A DNA stretch of 6,578 bases from Nitrospiraceae bacterium. Its GTDB lineage: Bacteria > Nitrospirota_A > Leptospirillia > Leptospirillales > Leptospirillaceae. The notes under the pieces were generated by a model, which ran no database searches, was not told the DNA's origin, and saw nothing but the letters and a program-made list of their open reading frames with translations. The position numbers and the translations under genes were made by a program. The stretch is from contig JAPTWQ010000142.1 of NCBI GenBank assembly GCA_028064945.1, positions 1 to 6,578 on the forward strand, given 5' to 3'. The stretch's first letter is position 1, and each line of letters begins with the position of its first letter. Positions 1-6,578 of the stretch are shown here, one piece after another.

Positions 1-1133
1 CGGATCGGGGCCCAGGCGGCGTTCACCCCCTGGTGGGTCCAGTCGCCGGTATGGGCCGCGGTGTGCATGGCCTGAACGAGGTGATAGCCGTATGTAAGGG
101 ATAGGAGAAAGAGCGCCAGAATCGAGACCATTCCGGCCACGATTGAGAGAGTTGAAGGAATAGCGCCCAGCACGCTTGATCCCGAAACGAAAGCTCCCAA
201 TGGAGAGGACGAACAGGTGTTCTGTCCTGCTGAAGATCCGAAAAGGGAATAGAGGACGCAAGAGGCCAAGGATCCGGGTGCCGAATGGACGAACGAGGGA
301 ATGGCGAATCCGGCCAGCATGCTGTTTTTGATTCTTTCGAGGTCCACCTCAAGGGGCCACTTTTGCTGTGGGAGCCACCGGGGGAGATCATCGAGACACC
401 AGTACCAGAGAACGATTGGATAAAAGGTGGCGGCGATTCCGGAAAGAACATCGATCACATACAGCCAGCTTGGAAGACCGATCGTCTCCTCCAGGATGAC
501 TGTCTCCGCCAGCATGGCGAAGCCTCCGACGAGAGGAGGGAAGGCACAGTGCCAGAAGATTTTCTTGAGAGTCGTCTTCGGTGGGCGTATCAAGCGGTTC
601 TCATCCCGGAAGCGCTGGAAATCGGCAAACGCCGTAGACATGAGCGCGGCGTAGCGGGTGGAGTATTGGAGCGGGATGACGCACGTCAATTTAAAGGCCC
701 AGGCGATACGCCCAAACCCGTCAAAAACATGTCGGGCGAGGGAGGCCCAATAACGCCTGGCCCCCAGAAATCCTTTCCAGCCTCCTCCGGAGATCCACAT
801 CCAGATCCGGCTTTTTCGCCAGTCGGTAGAGCGGGAAAGGGCATTTTCCGTTCCGGAAAGGGAATGGAGCTTCTCTTGAGCAGGTGAACCCCACTCTTGG
901 GGATGTTTAGGCGGAGGGAGAGCTGCCAGGTCCTGATTCTGGCCTGGGGGAAGTCCGGGGAGAGCCGGCTGCCGGAGGTCGAATGCCCGTTTCCCTGTCC
1001 GCATGATCGCCCGTCCGGAGGCTTTTACCACCGCAAGGGCAAGATTTCCCAGAGTTTTAGCAGCGCCGTCCCGGTTCCACTTCCTCAGAAAAAGAACCTT
1101 GAAGTTTGTTCTTTCCACCTTTTTACTGTTCAT
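1..1133 (-). CDS. DotA/TraY-like type IVB secretion membrane protein, 3' end outside window
   Basis: Reading the minus strand from the ATG at 1133 gives 377 uninterrupted codons that run off the window start, so the C-terminus is missing. The start is supported by GGAGG five bases upstream. Residues 1-110 are basic and then Pro/Gln-rich (linker about 55-90) with no clear signal peptide. Hydrophobic, membrane-like segments lie at about 196-214, 223-246 and 325-348. The last one is followed by YGYHLVQAMHTAAHTGDW and, at 371-377, NAAWAPI. A membrane helix followed by a TA-x-x-G segment and a W-x-P-[IL]-R-like motif is what I know from DotA (Legionella) and TraY (IncI plasmids), inner-membrane proteins of the type IVB apparatus. 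The neighbouring dotO supports this. It has its own promoter, unlike an internal operon gene, perhaps because the cargo block separates it from dotO. The family call rests on a short motif and context; a different polytopic transfer protein is possible. Confidence 0.68.
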   Translation of the reverse strand, partial: MNSKKVERTNFKVLFLRKWNRDGAAKTLGNLALAVVKASGRAIMRTGKRAFDLRQPALPGLPPGQNQDLAALPPPKHPQEWGSPAQEKLHSLSGTENALSRSTDWRKSRIWMWISGGGWKGFLGARRYWASLARHVFDGFGRIAWAFKLTCVIPLQYSTRYAALMSTAFADFQRFRDENRLIRPPKTTLKKIFWHCAFPPLVGGFAMLAETVILEETIGLPSWLYVIDVLSGIAATFYPIVLWYWCLDDLPRWLPQQKWPLEVDLERIKNSMLAGFAIPSFVHSAPGSLASCVLYSLFGSSAGQNTCSSSPLGAFVSGSSVLGAIPSTLSIVAGMVSILALFLLSLTYGYHLVQAMHTAAHTGDWTHQGVNAAWAPI

Positions 1134-1136
1134 GCG

Positions 1137-1202
1137 TTCCTCCGTTTTATTTAAAATGTTATTCTATTATACCATATTAATAAATAAACAAAAACGGAGG
1201 AA
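1137..1202. repeat. 12-bp perfect inverted repeat in the divergent promoter region
   Basis: TTCCTCCGTTTT at 1137-1148 is the exact reverse complement of AAAACGGAGGAA at 1191-1202, with 42 bases between the arms. The left arm is the Shine-Dalgarno region of the dotA-like gene read on the minus strand. The right arm lies upstream of the plus-strand extended -10 and has no start codon at ribosome-binding distance. The arms also bracket the minus-strand -10 (1166-1171). It could be a two-site operator controlling both directions, or a chance or duplicated ribosome-binding segment. Confidence 0.5.
1166..1174 (-). promoter_or_regulatory. extended -10 promoter of the dotA-like gene
   Basis: On the minus strand TGGTATAAT runs from 1174 to 1166: a perfect TATAAT preceded by TG plus one base, the sigma70 extended -10 form. 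No good -35 is visible; TTTTTG lies 17 bases upstream. The predicted transcript start near 1158-1160 leaves a leader of about 25 bases before the ATG at 1133. The surroundings are very AT-rich compared with the rest of the window. Confidence 0.6.
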
Positions 1203-1218
1203 TATAAGGGTATTCCTG

Positions 1219-1227
1219 TGCTATGAT
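1219..1227 (+). promoter_or_regulatory. extended -10 promoter of the cargo block
   Basis: TGCTATGAT is a five-of-six match to TATAAT with the TG extension one base upstream. There is no recognisable -35, as is common for extended -10 promoters. Transcription would start near 1234, giving a short leader before the small frame at 1253 and placing both downstream hairpins inside the mRNA of the nucleotidyltransferase gene. It is divergent from the dotA-like promoter about 50 bp away. Confidence 0.45.
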
Positions 1228-1252
1228 GGACGAAAAAATGGGGGGGAGTGCG

Positions 1253-1351
1253 ATGAAAATGATCGGATTGGCTCAAAAGGTGATGAAAGCGCCCAGCCAC
1301 CTCCTCTGGGCGCTCTATGTTTGGATCGTTGAGGGTGCATGTGAATTCTAA
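1253..1351 (+). CDS. small 32-aa open reading frame, possible leader peptide
   Basis: ATG at 1253 is preceded by GGGGGGAG four bases upstream, a strong ribosome-binding site, and the frame ends at TAA 1349-1351. The peptide begins MKMIGLAQKV, is basic in its first half and hydrophobic in its second (LLWALYVWIV), and ends GACEF. I recognise no family. Both perfect hairpins of this region fall in or across the frame, and its stop codon lies in the loop of the second, so a translating ribosome would open both. The nucleotidyltransferase start is 32 bases past the stop. This arrangement suits a regulatory leader peptide. Alternatives are a small membrane-active toxin, or an untranslated structured RNA with a chance frame; the hairpin-forming bases constrain the codons, which weakens the coding case. 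Confidence 0.4.
   Translation: MKMIGLAQKVMKAPSHLLWALYVWIVEGACEF
1288..1314 (+). promoter_or_regulatory. perfect 9-bp GC-rich hairpin with an anti-Shine-Dalgarno-like loop
   Basis: AGCGCCCAG (1288-1296) and CTGGGCGCT (1306-1314) are exact reverse complements around the nine-base loop CCACCTCCT. The loop contains CACCTCCT, which matches the 3'-terminal anti-Shine-Dalgarno of 16S rRNA, so it could pair with the AAGGAG at 1372-1377 before the nucleotidyltransferase gene or with the purine run at 1241-1248. No T-run follows on either strand, so it is not a standard intrinsic terminator. Confidence 0.55.
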
Positions 1352-1365
1352 ACCATGCACCCTCA
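1330..1365 (+). promoter_or_regulatory. perfect 12-bp hairpin upstream of the nucleotidyltransferase gene
   Basis: TGAGGGTGCATG (1330-1341) and CATGCACCCTCA (1354-1365) pair perfectly across a 12-base loop that holds the TAA of the small frame. The stem ends seven bases before the AAGGAG ribosome-binding site of the gene at 1384. Neither strand has a following T-run, so a role in translation control, attenuation or protein binding fits better than intrinsic termination. Confidence 0.6.
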
Positions 1366-1383
1366 GAGCAAAAGGAGTTTGTC

Positions 1384-1950
1384 ATGAGATCGAGCACATC
1401 GGCACTTCCTCCCTGGAGCAACGTGGGTGTGTTGCCGCCGATACGACCTACTGTGCCGGGTTGCAGTACGGATCGCTCGCCTTATACTGTTGATCTGGCC
1501 GCTTTTGTCGAACGTTTCGCTACTTCGCCTGAGCGGAAGAAAATCTTGGGTGGCCTACTCAAATTCCGGCAAGCGCTGCACAAACAGGGTATCGTTCGCG
1601 GCTTCCAATGGCTGGACGGTAGCTTTTTGGAAGATGTCGAAACATTGGAGAAACGCCATCCCCGTGATATGGATATAGTGACTCTTTTTCATCTGCCAGA
1701 CGGGGACGATCAATCCACGTTGACTAAACGCGCAGGGACGCTGTTTCACAATAATCACCTGAAGACCACCTATGCCATGGATGCTTATTTCGTTGTGCTT
1801 GATCAGCCCACAGACGAATGGCAGGTCAGGAATGTGTCCTACTGGTACAGCATGTGGTCGCATCGTCGCGATGGCCTCTGGAAGGGTTTTGTACAGATAG
1901 ATCTGGACTCGGCACAAGACGGCGATGCCGGGGCGATCCTGAGTAGCTAG
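1384..1950 (+). CDS. nucleotidyltransferase-fold protein, DUF6932-like
   Basis: This is a 188-aa protein; its ATG is preceded by AAGGAG at a six-base spacing. The N-terminal LPPW...GVLPP segment (8-19) and the F-x7-S-x2-R-x2-I-L-x-G-L helix (45-58) lead into WLDGSF (76-81), then P93-R94-D95-M96-D97 and a further acid in MDAYFV (D133). The GS...D-x-D...D layout is the metal- and nucleotide-binding pattern of the polymerase-beta nucleotidyltransferase fold, as in MNT antitoxins and AbiEii toxins, with a slightly long GS-to-DxD gap. The C-terminal W-Y...RRDGLWKGFVQI segment (154-172) also fits my recollection of DUF6932 proteins, small stand-alone members often found beside a partner gene. All three carboxylates are present, so activity is plausible; its substrate cannot be read. 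It is co-oriented with the next gene 14 bases away and likely cotranscribed. Fold call is firm, biological role is not. Confidence 0.75.
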   Translation: MRSSTSALPPWSNVGVLPPIRPTVPGCSTDRSPYTVDLAAFVERFATSPERKKILGGLLKFRQALHKQGIVRGFQWLDGSFLEDVETLEKRHPRDMDIVTLFHLPDGDDQSTLTKRAGTLFHNNHLKTTYAMDAYFVVLDQPTDEWQVRNVSYWYSMWSHRRDGLWKGFVQIDLDSAQDGDAGAILSS

Positions 1951-1964
1951 GGAAGGGATTCATC

Positions 1965-2891
1965 ATGGATAACGAGTATCTCGCTATTGCCTCCGAAATT
2001 CGTGAGTTGGAGTCATTGCTGGTCGACATTCCCAAGAATAATCTGATAGAGCGTATGAGCTTGGACGCCCGCCTTGCTACCGCCCGCGATTCATTGGGTG
2101 CCTTTTTGCCACAACAACTCGCTCCGAGGGTAAAATTAACCTTCCGTGGTAAACCGGTGTTTGGTAGTCATGGTATCGTAGCTGACTTTGCCTCTAAGGC
2201 TGCCATGGCCTTTTCCGATATTTTTGTGGTCGTTGCCGCCGACGGGTTGAGCGAAGGGCTTCGGTCTATGGGGCCGATACCCAACAAGGAAAAGAACCAG
2301 TTATTGATCACCGGAACAGCAATTGGTTCCTTTGGATTTGAGTTTGAGCTTCCAGCACCCGAACCGTCGTTTTTCCCCGAGTTAGAGAAGGGGCAGGAAG
2401 CCATGGTTAAGATTGAGGCGTTGTTGAGACTCTCCGCCGAAGGCAGCGATGACGAAGTTGCAGAGATCATTGAGGAAGTCCACCCTCGGGCAGTCAAGAA
2501 GGTCTATGCCTTTCTCGATTTGTTGGTTCAAGAAGAGGCGTGGTGCGGTCTTGAATTTGCAGACCGATTCTTCCGCTATAAGGACTTCGAACAGATTAAA
2601 ATATCCTCCGAACGCTTGAAGGAGGAGAACATTCATGGACGGGAAGAAACCTTTTCTGGCGAGTTTCAGGGAGTACTTCCTGCGGGGAGAACCTTTGAAT
2701 TTCGTCGTTCCGACCAAGGGAAGCTAATCCGCGGTAAGGTTGATGCCACGATAGATGATCCTGGTATTCTTAACAGGAAATGGCTGCACAAGCCGGTGTC
2801 CGTCGTACTCCATGTAATGCAGGTTGGGCAGGGGAGGCCGCGCTATAGCTTGATGTCGCTGGATAGCTTGACTGAGATACCACCTACTTAA
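1965..2891 (+). CDS. conserved-looking protein of unknown function, partner of the nucleotidyltransferase
   Basis: This 308-aa protein starts at an ATG with GGAAGG about eight bases upstream, 14 bases after the nucleotidyltransferase stop, so the two very probably form one transcript. I recognise no characterised family. Residues 1-46 are a charged helical, possibly coiled-coil segment rich in Glu, Arg and Leu. Residues 54-92 (RVKLTFRGKPVFGSHGIVAD onward) and GTAIGSFGFEFEL (117-129) look like a compact alpha/beta core with conserved-type glycines. Residues 130-210 are acidic and helical. The last 80 residues or so (EFQGVLPAGRTFEFRR and GKLIRGKVDATIDD onward) read as a beta-rich domain. There is no signal peptide, membrane segment, Walker motif or nuclease motif. 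It is predicted cytoplasmic. Adjacency suggests it binds, targets or neutralises the nucleotidyltransferase, or is its effector; that is inference. Base composition looks more balanced than in the flanking dot genes. Confidence 0.8.
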   Translation: MDNEYLAIASEIRELESLLVDIPKNNLIERMSLDARLATARDSLGAFLPQQLAPRVKLTFRGKPVFGSHGIVADFASKAAMAFSDIFVVVAADGLSEGLRSMGPIPNKEKNQLLITGTAIGSFGFEFELPAPEPSFFPELEKGQEAMVKIEALLRLSAEGSDDEVAEIIEEVHPRAVKKVYAFLDLLVQEEAWCGLEFADRFFRYKDFEQIKISSERLKEENIHGREETFSGEFQGVLPAGRTFEFRRSDQGKLIRGKVDATIDDPGILNRKWLHKPVSVVLHVMQVGQGRPRYSLMSLDSLTEIPPT

Positions 2892-2920
2892 GTAGATGTG
2901 TTTGCGCAGAAGGAGACAAA

Positions 2921-2980
2921 GTGGATTATCTCTCCATTGCCTTCTCTACCACGAGGATATGTGGGGTGTTGATAATATAA
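2921..2980 (+). pseudogene. 19-codon frame resembling the start of the preceding gene; possible remnant
   Basis: GTG at 2921 follows GGAG at an ideal five-base spacing and opens a frame of 19 codons ending in TAA at 2978-2980. The peptide starts VDYLSIAFSTTRICG. Its opening resembles MDNEYLAIAS at the start of the 308-aa gene, and the DNA GGATTATCTCTCCATTGCC is similar to the matching stretch near 1968-1992 with a short gap. It may be the decayed start of a lost related third gene, or a chance similarity. Confidence 0.25.
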
Positions 2981-2994
2981 GCGGAGGGGTTTTT

Positions 2995-3258
2995 ATGAGT
3001 AAAATTCAGGGGTTGGGAAAAATAGGGCCGTATACCATCGTCAGGATCTATGCGGTGGATGAAAATGGGCAAGAAACTCACTTGGGCTATGGGGTATTGA
3101 GCTCGGACGGATCTTTATTGAAAGGGGCGTTTGGTCAAACCATCTTTGGGTCGATAGAAGAGGCGATAAATTTGGCCGAAGAAGAAATCAAAAAAACGAT
3201 GCCAGAGGAGAAAAAATTAGCACCACCTGTTCGACGCGGGCCGGGATTCTCCAGATAG
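2995..3258 (+). CDS. 87-aa hypothetical protein
   Basis: The chosen start is the ATG at 2995, which has GGAGG about seven to eight bases upstream; an in-frame ATG at 2896 would add 33 residues but lacks comparable support and reads as unlikely protein. The product begins MSKIQGLGKIGPYTIVRIYA. The first half looks beta-rich (YTIVRIYAVDENGQETHLGY), the middle is a helix rich in Glu (IEEAINLAEEEIKKTMPEEK), and the tail is basic and Pro-rich (APPVRRGPGFSR). No signal peptide or membrane segment is visible and I recognise no family. It closes the plus-strand cargo block and faces the 3' end of dotO. It looks more AT-rich than the dot genes. It might be a third member of the module or an unrelated passenger. 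Confidence 0.65.
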   Translation: MSKIQGLGKIGPYTIVRIYAVDENGQETHLGYGVLSSDGSLLKGAFGQTIFGSIEEAINLAEEEIKKTMPEEKKLAPPVRRGPGFSR

Positions 3259-3353
3259 TCCATTTCTGTCTCCGAAGGCTCTCTTGTTCTTGAAGAGACA
3301 AAATTAGCCACCTCGCATCCGATTTGGCGGTTTTTAGGGGTAATTTGGCTCTC
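3259..3353. other. convergent junction between the 87-aa gene and dotO
   Basis: These 95 bases separate two convergent genes, so a terminator is expected. The only small stem I see is TCTCTT/AAGAGA (3280-3285 and 3293-3298) around a seven-base loop, with no T-run on either side in the needed place. GGTTTTTA at 3329-3336 has no strong stem before it. I cannot support a clear intrinsic terminator here. Confidence 0.3.
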
Positions 3354-6314
3354 TCACTTCTCCTTCCCCATCTCTTCCACCAATTGCTGGACAATCGTCT
3401 TGTCGGCATCTCCGCTTTCTCCCCGATCCTTCATGTTCTGGGACCGGCGCTCGATCTCTTCCCGGGCCGTTCCTCCCGGGAATCGGGCGGCAAGTCTCCT
3501 CCGGGCTTCCACAGGACCCAGAAGTCGATAAAGCTCATCTCTCAGAACCGCGTCCTGGGCAGTGGTTGAAAACGCCCACAACTCGATCGGCCCCAAGGTA
3601 TTCGTGACGAACTGCTGGAACGTCCCCCGGTTCGTTACCAGGCGGGTAATCAGGTTCGCGCCGGCTTTGGAAGGGGACCCGATCTTCTCCATTGCCCCCA
3701 GCACGCTCTCCGAGAATCCGAAGATCTTTCCCGCCTTGTCGATCGCCTGCTTCGTGGCCGCTCCCAGGATCCAGACCGAGGTGGAGAGATCCACCATCGT
3801 CTCGTCGAAATCATTGATCGACTGGGAGAAGAGGGCAATCTGGATTCCTCTTTTGCGGCCTTCTCGAATGTCCGTCATGACCTGCGTCCGCACAAGGGGC
3901 GCCGCGTCGGTGCGGTGGAACTCGTCGAAGACCAGGCGCTTGGCGTCCTCTTTCAGATCCCGAGCCCTGTCGAGATGAAAGGACTTGTAGCGGTCCGGGG
4001 CCAAGACCGCTTCTTCCGCGTCCAGGAAAAAGTCCCGGACGAGCATGTAGCGTCCCAGGAGATACATGACGGCCGTCTGGCGGGCGGCTGGTCCTGAACC
4101 TTTTGGACAGACCGCATCGAGATCCAATGCCACCACCCGGGCCTCTCCCAGGTCGAACTTCGTTTCCCCCGCCAGAATCGGGTACTCCCGGATCGCTTCC
4201 TGGATCCGTCTTTTAAAATACTCCACCGCAGATTCTCCCGTCGGTGTTGTCAACCGATACTCGGAGGTCACCGCAGGGTCGCTTGCTATGGACGGAATGT
4301 CCTTCAGATTCGGAACGGCATGCGTCTGAGCAAGCCATGCTTCCCGGATCCGCCCCTGGTCATAGAGAGCATCGACGACGTCCCACCAGTAGAGTTTAGA
4401 ATGCTTCTCAAATGGGAAGGCGATTTCGGAAAGGGTCTGGTCGACTACGGGGTCGATATGAGGCGCGTATTCCCGGGGAGATGTGTTCGCTTCCCGGTCC
4501 TCAAGGGAGGAATACGCCCGATCGACCACGAGGCTAGCGATTCCCGAAACTCCGTCATAAGGGTCATTCGCTCCCAGAGGGGTCGCCAAAAGGCTCAGGA
4601 AATTCGCGAGAAACGCCCGGTGTGCTGGAAGAGGGGTGCGGTAGCCCAAGGGCAGGTCGAAAGGATTAACGGAATAATCCGAGCTCATCGTCACCCGGTA
4701 ATGGGCTGCCAGATGCTTCTTTCCTTCCGGTAGTGCCCCCTTCAGAAGGGATATGAGTCCGGACGACGATGGGCCGATATCGAGAATGGCGATTCGGGGA
4801 AGACGCCGGAGACCCGGAAGAAGACAAAGCGCGAGGTTCAGTGCGTTCGAAAACACGCTCTTTCCTCCGCCGCTAGGAGCAAATCCCAGCTCGATCCAGG
4901 AGGATTGAAGGGGAGATCCGGGCTGGAAGGGCAGGATCTTCCCGTCGGGAGAGCGGAGCAGGAGTGCTCCCTTCTCGAACACGCTGGCCGGACGGACGGG
5001 AATCGTAGGGGCCACCTCGGAAAGTGGTGCAATCAGGACGGGCGCAACCGACCGGCGAGAAAGTCCCGGAACGGTCGAAACGAGTCCCAGAAAGGGATCT
5101 CCCGTTCTGGCGGTTGCCTCCACTCCGCCCCAGGCGTTTAGTGCCTGCTGGAGAATGGAAGCGTTCCGGCGGACCTCCTTCCCGTCTTCTCCCCAGGTGC
5201 AGACAGCCATGGAGATTCGTACAACCGGCTGTCCGGCCAGAAAGCGGGCCCGGATGTCTTCCGCACCGGCCACGATCTGCTTGTTCCGGGCCGAAACGAA
5301 CGACAGGATCTGGGCGACCACAGGCCGCCAGGAGAGGCTCCCGATTCCGTTCCCCTCGAACCGGAAAAGAATCCTCCATGGGATTTCCCGAAGGTACGAG
5401 AACAGTTCCCCGAAGGGAACGGGGGAGAGTTGGGGCATCGTTACGGAGAATGTCCGGATATACCGGTCCCCCAGACGAACGGTTTCGAGATCCAGAACCT
5501 CGGCAGGTCGGGGAACGACCTGTTGTGCGACCTGTGGCCACTGGACGCAGTCGATCAGGTCTTCCCCCGGATCCGGGTACCGGACCGGAATTTTGTCTCC
5601 GGGAAGTCTTGGCCTCCATTCTTCCGGAGTCACATCCGGATCGACCATGTGGCGAATCTGCCGTAGCGCCGTGTGGCAGTCGAGTGCCCGGACGAGGAAG
5701 CCGGTCTGGGAAAGCCCCATTTCGAAATTGGAGACCACCGCCCGGTGCTTTTCCCGGAGACGTGCGAGACCGGCATAAATATCCTGGCCGGCAGAACCTG
5801 ATCGCCATTTTGAGGATTTCCGTTCGCCGTCGCGTTCAAACTGCCGGTCCTTGATGGCTTCTTTCCGGGAATCGGGAGGCAGAACGTCGGGAGTGGTCCA
5901 GACAGCGATAAGGACGGACTCCTGAGCACACCAGTCGGACAGAACCTTTGTCTTTTCATCGAACAGATCCGATAAGTCAAGACCAAGGCGCCCGGAAGTC
6001 CGGATCGCCGAATCCAGACTCTCCCGGACCGCCCGCCTGGATTCCAGAGGATCCCGGGAGAAGGACATCTGGACGATGTGTCCTCCGCGCCCCACCGCCG
6101 TGTTCATGACATCGGAGATTTTTCCCACGAGAACGTCGAATTCGGGCCCTCCAACGAGGGACGCCACGCCACCGATGGACAGAAGGGTCACGAGAGACCC
6201 GTCTCTGGCCGCCAGGACATACTTCGAATCCGATGTCTCGAGTTCGACGAAGGCGCCCGCGGATCGTCCCAGGCTGTCCAGAAGATTTCCCGCAATAGAT
6301 GAACCGATGCTCAT
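3354..6314 (-). CDS. dotO: DotO/IcmB-family VirB4-like ATPase of a type IVB secretion/conjugation system
   Basis: The product is a cytoplasmic ATPase that energises assembly and transport at the inner-membrane base of the type IVB apparatus. From the ATG at 6314 it has 986 residues, close to the roughly 1000 of Legionella DotO. The N-terminal LDSLGRSAGAFVELETSDSK and DGSLVTLLSI segments resemble DotO. The Walker A variant APSGGGKS places its lysine at K485. Walker B is LVFDEFH (D797, E798), followed by the FSQSINDFD motif near 829-837, as in VirB4-type ATPases. ATG 6314 is preferred because GGAG lies nine bases upstream and its N-terminus lines up with DotO. ATG 6329 (991 aa) and TTG 6377 (1007 aa) are alternatives with no ribosome-binding site that I can see. 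The gene ends in a helical tail (VQQLVEEMGKEK). It is intact, and its start lies about 140 bp from the tRNA-derived attachment site, placing it at the element's edge. Confidence 0.9.
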   Translation of the reverse strand: MSIGSSIAGNLLDSLGRSAGAFVELETSDSKYVLAARDGSLVTLLSIGGVASLVGGPEFDVLVGKISDVMNTAVGRGGHIVQMSFSRDPLESRRAVRESLDSAIRTSGRLGLDLSDLFDEKTKVLSDWCAQESVLIAVWTTPDVLPPDSRKEAIKDRQFERDGERKSSKWRSGSAGQDIYAGLARLREKHRAVVSNFEMGLSQTGFLVRALDCHTALRQIRHMVDPDVTPEEWRPRLPGDKIPVRYPDPGEDLIDCVQWPQVAQQVVPRPAEVLDLETVRLGDRYIRTFSVTMPQLSPVPFGELFSYLREIPWRILFRFEGNGIGSLSWRPVVAQILSFVSARNKQIVAGAEDIRARFLAGQPVVRISMAVCTWGEDGKEVRRNASILQQALNAWGGVEATARTGDPFLGLVSTVPGLSRRSVAPVLIAPLSEVAPTIPVRPASVFEKGALLLRSPDGKILPFQPGSPLQSSWIELGFAPSGGGKSVFSNALNLALCLLPGLRRLPRIAILDIGPSSSGLISLLKGALPEGKKHLAAHYRVTMSSDYSVNPFDLPLGYRTPLPAHRAFLANFLSLLATPLGANDPYDGVSGIASLVVDRAYSSLEDREANTSPREYAPHIDPVVDQTLSEIAFPFEKHSKLYWWDVVDALYDQGRIREAWLAQTHAVPNLKDIPSIASDPAVTSEYRLTTPTGESAVEYFKRRIQEAIREYPILAGETKFDLGEARVVALDLDAVCPKGSGPAARQTAVMYLLGRYMLVRDFFLDAEEAVLAPDRYKSFHLDRARDLKEDAKRLVFDEFHRTDAAPLVRTQVMTDIREGRKRGIQIALFSQSINDFDETMVDLSTSVWILGAATKQAIDKAGKIFGFSESVLGAMEKIGSPSKAGANLITRLVTNRGTFQQFVTNTLGPIELWAFSTTAQDAVLRDELYRLLGPVEARRRLAARFPGGTAREEIERRSQNMKDRGESGDADKTIVQQLVEEMGKEK

Positions 6315-6328
6315 TCCCGATTTCTCCA

Positions 6329-6347
6329 TTGTGACGAATTTGTGACG
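6329..6347. repeat. tandem TTGTGACG repeats, one helical turn apart
   Basis: TTGTGACG occurs at 6329-6336 and again at 6340-6347, an 11-bp period, with a further partial copy (GTGACC) at 6347-6352. They lie between the candidate dotO promoter and its preferred start, so on the minus strand they would sit in the mRNA leader region. Same-face spacing is typical of operator half-sites, but the repeats are short and may be chance. Confidence 0.35.
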
Positions 6348-6386
6348 TGACCTTAAACGGAGGGCTTGGAATTTCAATCCGTTTTG

Positions 6387-6415
6387 ATCCGGTTAGACTT
6401 TGGCAGACACCGGAT
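6387..6415. repeat. 7-bp inverted repeat between dotO and the attachment site
   Basis: ATCCGGT (6387-6393) and ACCGGAT (6409-6415) are exact inverted copies 15 bases apart. A related ATCCG also occurs at 6377-6381. Lying between the att-like tRNA fragment and dotO, they could be arm-type or excisionase sites or a dotO operator. Support is sequence symmetry only. Confidence 0.3.
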
Positions 6416-6416
6416 A

Positions 6417-6445
6417 AGTTGTTAAAAAACAAGTATTTATGTCAA
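6417..6445 (-). promoter_or_regulatory. candidate dotO promoter
   Basis: On the minus strand a perfect TTGACA (6445-6440) is followed after 17 bases by ACAACT (6422-6417), a poor -10. The strong -35 and the AT-rich spacer are suggestive, but the -10 mismatch keeps this weak. If real, dotO transcription begins inside the element, only eight bases from the tRNA-derived segment. Confidence 0.35.
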
Positions 6446-6452
6446 TATAATC

Positions 6453-6501
6453 CTGACTCTTAATCAGCGGGTTGGGAGTTCGATCCTCCCTCGGCCCACC
6501 A
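6453..6501 (+). other. 3' fragment of tRNA-Lys(CUU), putative attachment (att) site
   Basis: The segment reads as tRNA parts in order: anticodon stem CTGA (6453-6456), loop CTCTTAA with anticodon CTT at 6459-6461, stem TCAG(C) (6464-6468), variable loop GGGTT (6469-6473), T stem GGGAG (6474-6478), T loop TTCGATC (6479-6485), CTCCC (6486-6490), 3' acceptor strand TCGGCCC (6491-6497), A73 and CCA (6498-6501). The base at 6452 no longer pairs with C6468, and nothing upstream resembles a D arm or 5' acceptor strand. It is therefore not a functional tRNA. Tyrosine recombinases of ICEs, islands and phages commonly integrate in tRNA 3' halves and leave exactly this duplicated 3' piece. If this is the distal end of an integrated element, the element lies to the left and chromosome to the right. 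If the window comes from the excised circle, element lies on both sides. Confidence 0.85.
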
Positions 6502-6578
6502 TATTTTCCCGCCCCGAATGCCGACTCCTTGACAGAAACTCCACCCGTTTTTGTATTTATCCTATTCTTCTTCATGTT
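6502..6578. other. flank beyond the tRNA fragment, no gene identified
   Basis: These 77 bases run from the tRNA CCA end to the window edge. A minus-strand ATG at 6575 opens a frame (MKKNRINTKTGG...), but it runs straight into the antisense of the tRNA fragment and is probably not a gene. I see no integrase start, hairpin terminator or other feature. Whether this is chromosome or element cannot be told from so little sequence. Confidence 0.4.

Follow-up and report, generated by a model that had tools for sequence, protein, structure and literature searches.

Two adjacent genes, here called A and B, in a stretch of 6,578 nucleotides from a Nitrospiraceae bacterium (GenBank assembly GCA_028064945.1, contig JAPTWQ010000142.1, positions 1 to 6,578; hereafter the window) form a pair that recurs in very different genomes, often within restriction operons, and that probably represents a not yet described offshoot of a system predicted to act against viruses or as a toxin-antitoxin. 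We give about an even chance to the reading that A and B are an obligate two-gene defence or toxin-antitoxin module, a divergent offshoot of PDC-M63, a candidate listed by PADLOC, in which A would be the effector and B its restraint and sensor. This reading is built on the strict pairing of the two genes, their overlaps, their broad but patchy spread, their frequent embedding next to hsdS and hsdR, the conserved catalytic residues of A, the distant homology of B to PDC-M63B and the co-divergence of the two proteins. The pair consists of:

1384-1950, plus strand: gene A, DUF6932 nucleotidyltransferase, 188 amino acids (aa) (PF22014, PDC-M63A, phrog_9194, alignment, predicted structure)
1965-2891, plus strand: gene B, partner protein, 308 aa (open reading frame (ORF); predicted three-part architecture)

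Pairing of the two genes across genomes

The search for relatives of B in a collection of species genomes found 122, of which 80 were fetched; with three plasmid and 18 viral-contig loci they made up a set of 101 loci, in which L010-L013 are near-identical copies and the B gene of L008 is cut by the contig end. A lies upstream of B, on the same strand and within 500 bp, in 99 of the 101, and in the two exceptions (L045 and L089) B begins at bases 24 and 87 of its contig. The two genes overlap in 94 of the 99 pairs, by exactly 4 bp in 39 (with starts assigned mechanically), and are separated by 14 bp in the window. Such pairing is far above chance. The distances among A proteins correlate with those among B proteins (r 0.72 over 86 non-redundant pairs, some of them with truncated A frames), the maximum in 1000 permutations being 0.21. 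Judged by record titles, the hosts, many of which are metagenome bins, include Pseudomonadota, Chlorobi, Planctomycetes, Verrucomicrobia, Acidobacteria, Chlamydiae, Spirochaeta, a Levilinea and archaea. An earlier interpretation of this DNA, made without database searches (the sequence-only reading), had proposed repeated co-occurrence in unrelated settings as a test of a module, and this is what we have found on plasmids, on viral contigs and in restriction operons, both in the set above and when starting from A (18 of 19 long-form A loci, the other at a contig end; see below).

The viral contigs gave no locus when searched with B patterns and 18 when searched with A patterns. No B was found in the INPHARED phages, and the L010 pair was not found in the Escherichia coli genomes searched. 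Two of the plasmid loci have conspicuous surroundings. On a Pseudomonas aeruginosa plasmid (L001, 5005-8897) the pair is 1.4 kb from a site-specific integrase gene, and on a Bradyrhizobium plasmid (L002, 8916-11748) a ubiquitin-like conjugation cluster of DUF6527, ThiF and multiubiquitin genes follows it on the opposite strand.

Gene A, a predicted nucleotidyltransferase

The sequence-only reading had described A as a DUF6932-like nucleotidyltransferase, and the match to Pfam DUF6932 (PF22014; E 2.3e-32, 112.8 bits for a gathering cut-off of 27) bears this out. A also matches the PADLOC candidate PDC-M63A (7.2e-15, with a further match at 2.8e-05) and phrog_9194 (1.1e-38). The motif of the nucleotidyltransferase superfamily consists of GS, DxD and a third D. 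When 46 relatives are aligned, the corresponding residues of A (G79-S80, D95, D97 and D133) do not vary, nor do H160 and W166-K167-G168, so that A carries the complete motif of a putative member of the superfamily; the positions of both ORFs and their 14-bp spacing were likewise as first described. The predicted structure (AlphaFold2, mean predicted local distance difference test 90.8) has a nucleotidyltransferase-like fold, with weak structural matches. The C terminus of the window protein is some 7 aa shorter than that of most listed relatives (195 aa). Database homologues number about a thousand for each of A and B, and neither of the two profiles found a meaningful sequence relative among solved structures (best E 0.49 and 1).

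Gene B and the comparison with known systems

B had been introduced as a protein of unknown function. Indeed, none of the families in Pfam, NCBIfam or PADLOC reached its threshold, and what can be added is a match to phrog_18731 (E 1.1e-57), a family itself annotated as 'unknown function'. Its predicted architecture comprises an N-terminal helical hairpin (residues 2-51), an alpha/beta middle part and a C-terminal barrel (about 221-308) resembling an oligonucleotide/oligosaccharide-binding (OB) fold. A relative of B in L004 (6441-7478) has a weak PADLOC match (2.8e-4) to the candidate PDC-M32A, possibly a further kin family.

A two-gene arrangement that includes a nucleotidyltransferase and is linked to defence recalls HEPN-MNT and AbiE. 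However, B matches neither the HEPN nor the AbiEi families, as had been said from the sequence, and A matches DUF6932 only. At E<=1, Pfam gave no AbiEi or AbiEii match for either protein; no HEPN or nuclease family was found for B, and 60 B sequences contain no invariant or nearly invariant histidine, hence no conserved R-x4-6-H. Membership in these two systems, or in the cyclic oligonucleotide-based antiphage signalling systems (CBASS), was thus considered and rejected, with no matching family for A or B. The last comparison bears on the possibility that A makes a nucleotide signal, as in CBASS, and B is its receptor or effector. We regard this as improbable, given that Pfam and PADLOC (E<=1) yielded no match to CD-NTases or CBASS effectors for either A or B, and that B showed no recognisable effector domain.

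Relation to PDC-M63 and other partners of DUF6932 genes

In one locus (L103) the partner of a DUF6932 gene matches six PDC-M63B models (best 5.7e-45). No PDC-M63B model matched the B protein of the window, seven other B proteins or that of L110 at E<=1. The profiles of B and PDC-M63B are nevertheless colinear over 218 columns with a score of 40.6 (hhalign probability only 60%, P 9e-5), compared with maxima of 25.5 in 200 column shuffles and 28.1 in 100 block shuffles, and with 18.9 and 17.9 for reversed profiles. In addition, the partners in L132, L137 and L163 gave hits with each of the two profiles, the weaker hit lying between 1e-4 and 1e-5 among the ORFs searched. By these profile comparisons a distant homology of B and PDC-M63B is most likely. 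Since A matches PDC-M63A and B appears distantly homologous to PDC-M63B, the window pair may be placed as a divergent branch of PDC-M63, an already listed, unvalidated defence candidate whose PADLOC 2.0 models recognise the window pair only via A. The suggestion that the pair could be a new type has therefore to be replaced by that of a branch of a listed candidate. The two branches share gene order and overlap (as in L103) and have partners of similar length. They differ in that the window-type A is longer (about 190 versus 150 aa) and in that long-form A goes with B, short-form A with other partners. Both branches occur in one Massilia genome (G005), where L055/L107 is an A-B pair whose A is frameshifted and L103 is the PDC-M63AB pair.

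The last difference emerged when the DUF6932 genes were sought from the A side. Taking as long-form A the proteins with an A-profile score of at least 100, and counting fetched loci outside the centre genomes, we have found 19 loci. In 17 of them B is the next gene downstream, in one (L110) it follows an interrupted A, and one (L138) is cut by the contig end. Short-form DUF6932 genes are accompanied by Xre-like proteins of 137-172 aa, by Xre-like proteins of 420-508 aa with an HExxH motif, by PDC-M63B or by short proteins of 65-85 aa, the partner type being unassigned for some loci. Pfam confirms a helix-turn-helix (HTH) domain in the partner of L108 and an HTH plus an IrrE-like peptidase in that of L109; in the other partners Xre was assigned by eye, as was HEPN in L149, L151 and L152. 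A helical hairpin shared by the N termini of B and of the Xre-type partners was considered and dropped (hhalign score 16.1, maximum of 100 shuffles 16.0, reversed control 16.9); because the reversed control scored above the real alignment, we claim no homology between them.

In L109 (194-1932) the short-form gene overlaps the Xre-peptidase gene by 4 bp, and the latter matches PD-Lambda-2_B (2.2e-86). PD-lambda-2 is an experimentally validated abortive system with an Xre-peptidase (PMC9519451). Lying upstream of, and overlapping, a gene of the PD-Lambda-2_B type, the DUF6932 gene of L109 occupies the position of the HigB-like gene of that system. This likeness concerns a sister of A. PD-lambda-2 differs in that its first gene is HigB-like and that a third one follows, and neither an Xre nor a peptidase domain is present in the window pair. 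Literature searches that did not extend to bioRxiv found no paper on DUF6932 and one on PDC-M63 (PMC12409345).

The spread of PF22014 is rare and patchy. In whole-genome searches it was present in 5 of 274 genomes of one clade, in 5 of 369 of another survey (four of the five common to both), and, in three further clades, in 11 of 385 (10 over the cut-off), 31 of 395 (24 over the cut-off, three of these given no locus) and 14 of 387 (10 over the cut-off), counts that include the centre genomes, which carry A by selection; none of 14 control genomes had it. It is this distribution, together with the presence of the pair on plasmids and viral contigs and next to restriction genes, that makes a housekeeping nucleotidyltransferase pair outside any conflict very improbable in our view, even if conserved catalytic residues would be expected of such a pair as well.

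Which of the two genes may be costly

A way to glimpse at the polarity of a two-gene system is to ask which gene is found broken. A is interrupted in 11 of 114 pairs and B in none of 113 (pairs not cut by a contig end); this count leaves out duplicates as well as any stop within 8 residues of the start or 15 of the end of the aligned segment. Seven of the interrupted A genes have a stop or frameshift (L017, L041, L055, L060, L078, L097 and L110) and four are partial (L034, L053, L056 and L084, that of L056 also lying in two frames). A looser count that includes terminal stops and duplicate loci flags 18 A and 9 B genes; the flagged B stops that were inspected (L005, L007, L010, L015 and L060) are terminal, and L011-L013 are copies of L010. 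Random errors should strike B more often, because it is the longer gene. The breakage of A with B intact would fit a pair in which A imposes the cost and B restrains it.

The opposite polarity has a model, as MNT antitoxins silence HEPN toxins by nucleotidylation. Were the pair organised in this way, B would be the toxin and A the antitoxin that silences it. We consider this unlikely: B has no HEPN or nuclease family, a broken A beside an intact B is the reverse of what is expected from antitoxin loss, and the sister DUF6932 genes pair with Xre regulators or with proteins of 65-85 aa, which are more antitoxin-like than toxin-like.

Restriction-operon neighbourhoods

Genes of type I restriction systems are frequent neighbours. 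HsdS was identified by Pfam in 13 of 71 direct upstream neighbours (scanned over their first 330 aa), 16 of the 71 matching the commonest PADLOC specificity models, and HSDR_N (HsdR) in 10 of 74 direct downstream neighbours, up to 10 of which match one REase_I model. Ten host genomes (about 43 Mb) contain 20 HsdS frames by our count, from which, at one gene per kb, about 0.03 HsdS would be expected among 71 random genes. In a search over the 99 pairs with seeds taken from these loci, 18 have HsdS as their immediate upstream neighbour, 16 have HsdR no more than 1.5 kb downstream, and 11 have both. Nine of the 11 closest relatives by E-value (L022-L030) directly follow hsdS; L064 and L031 do not. 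In L022 the hsdS, A, B, Abi_C and hsdR genes abut or overlap. The specificity-like MADS model mad5 matches 15 of the upstream set (among the families listed). Other neighbours, one to three of each among the first 25 families of each tally, include AbiEi, Abi_C, Fic, MmeI, GmrSD, GajB, MADS and AriA, and there are also many metabolic and unassigned genes.

Other defence genes are known from such places. In enteropathogenic E. coli the place between hsdS and hsdR is taken by DarTG2 (PMC12255303), and prrC is embedded in a type I restriction locus and responds to inhibition of that locus (PMC12707154). Embedding in a type I operon is common to both and to A-B, the slot between hsdS and hsdR being shared with DarTG2 specifically. 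The differences are that family searches found no kinship with A-B, that the chemistry is other (PrrC is an anticodon nuclease, and DarTG2 acts by DNA ADP-ribosylation) and that the window copy of A-B is not restriction-embedded.

The pair could also be a non-toxic accessory of type I restriction that tunes or protects the HsdMSR complex, as the hsdS-A-B-hsdR order of 11 of the 99 loci and the tight packing of L022 might suggest. However, 81 of the 99 pairs have no HsdS directly upstream, none of the 21 plasmid and viral loci gave an HsdS or HsdR hit with the seeds used, and the window has neither gene, which renders this explanation quite improbable.

The pair in the window

In the window the pair lies on the plus strand between minus-strand type IVB transfer genes, and is a lone cargo among them. 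Its surroundings are the following:

3354-6377, minus strand: dotO/IcmB-type type IVB transfer ATPase, right flank; context, outside the module (similarity to an IcmB record)
3-1133, minus strand: dotA-like gene, left flank; context, outside the module; runs off the window (weak TIGR04346 match)
1137-1383, no strand: GC-poor intergenic stretch upstream of A with two inverted repeats; possible operator or regulatory hairpin

The right flank is clear (DotO and IcmB being two names of one protein): a Pseudomonas aeruginosa plasmid record with the annotation IcmB is 37.8% identical over 95%, and 3767 plasmid records match. The left flank matches TIGR04346 only weakly (E 0.0031, 16.2 bits for a cut-off of 100). 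GC content is 48-52% in windows over A-B and 57-62% in most windows over the transfer genes, a lower value that would fit separate acquisition of the pair.

A promoter region of its own had been attributed to the pair. The stretch of some 250 bp before A is indeed GC-poor and holds two inverted repeats, an imperfect one (1137-1202) and one with perfect 12-bp arms (1330-1365), but our scan found no plus-strand sigma-70 site upstream of A (its single site, against 2.4 expected, is on the minus strand). No T-run follows the 1330-1365 repeat by eye, for which reason an operator is possible there. Remnants of HsdS or HsdR were looked for in the window and none was found (best tblastn E 0.76). A small ORF after B (2998-3258, plus strand, 86 aa from ATG) was considered as a third module gene and rejected, since it has no relative among the ORFs of L001-L168 and matches no family above its cut-off. 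Positions 6450-6502, at the edge of the transfer genes, look by eye like the 3' half of a transfer RNA (tRNA) gene (anticodon loop CTCTTAA, T-arm and CCA), which we take to be tRNA-Lys, although ARAGORN and Rfam reported no tRNA there. This putative partial gene is a likely attachment site of the transfer element.

A possible mechanism

In the module that we favour, A would be the effector, a nucleoside triphosphate-dependent nucleotidyltransferase. The cellular target that it disables would most likely be an RNA, such as tRNA, and less likely a protein; nucleotidyltransferase toxins acting on tRNA have a precedent in MenT (PMC10435456). Its action would stop the growth of the infected cell, in an abortive, toxin-antitoxin-like manner. 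The N-terminal part of B would bind A and keep it inactive, and the C-terminal OB-like barrel might read a signal (DNA, RNA or the state of a linked restriction enzyme) upon which A would be released. The lone module of the window could protect or stabilise the type IVB transfer element as defence or maintenance cargo.

Several observations weigh against this reading. Nine of the 11 broken A genes come from the 75 pairs found via B, the 36 pairs found via A giving two broken A and no broken B, and it is possible that assembly errors account for some of the broken copies. The second gene can be the toxic one, as PD-lambda-2 shows (PMC9519451). Finally, deletion of the prophage-borne PDC-M63AB of E. 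coli NILS69 gave no defence phenotype (PMC12409345).

A more specific version, which we put forward tentatively and hold to be unlikely as it stands, is that of a restriction-guarding suicide module with a new chemistry. The OB barrel of B would monitor the type I complex or the state of its DNA; when an anti-restriction protein of a phage or plasmid disables restriction, B would free A, which would add nucleotides to tRNA or another RNA and so shut down translation. Where the pair stands alone on a transfer element, as in the window, it would have escaped from the restriction operon and would use the same switch for maintenance of the element or for the exclusion of rivals.

Implications

The A-B family is found in bacteria and archaea, often within restriction operons, and its second gene is missed by PADLOC 2.0. 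The pairings of DUF6932 genes with B, PDC-M63B, Xre and Xre-peptidase proteins are hereby tied into one apparently swappable system. If the restriction-guarding nucleotidyltransferase were real, it would add a further chemistry to anticodon cleavage and ADP-ribosylation among the companions of type I restriction, and searching between hsdS and hsdR would become a practical way to find more such modules.
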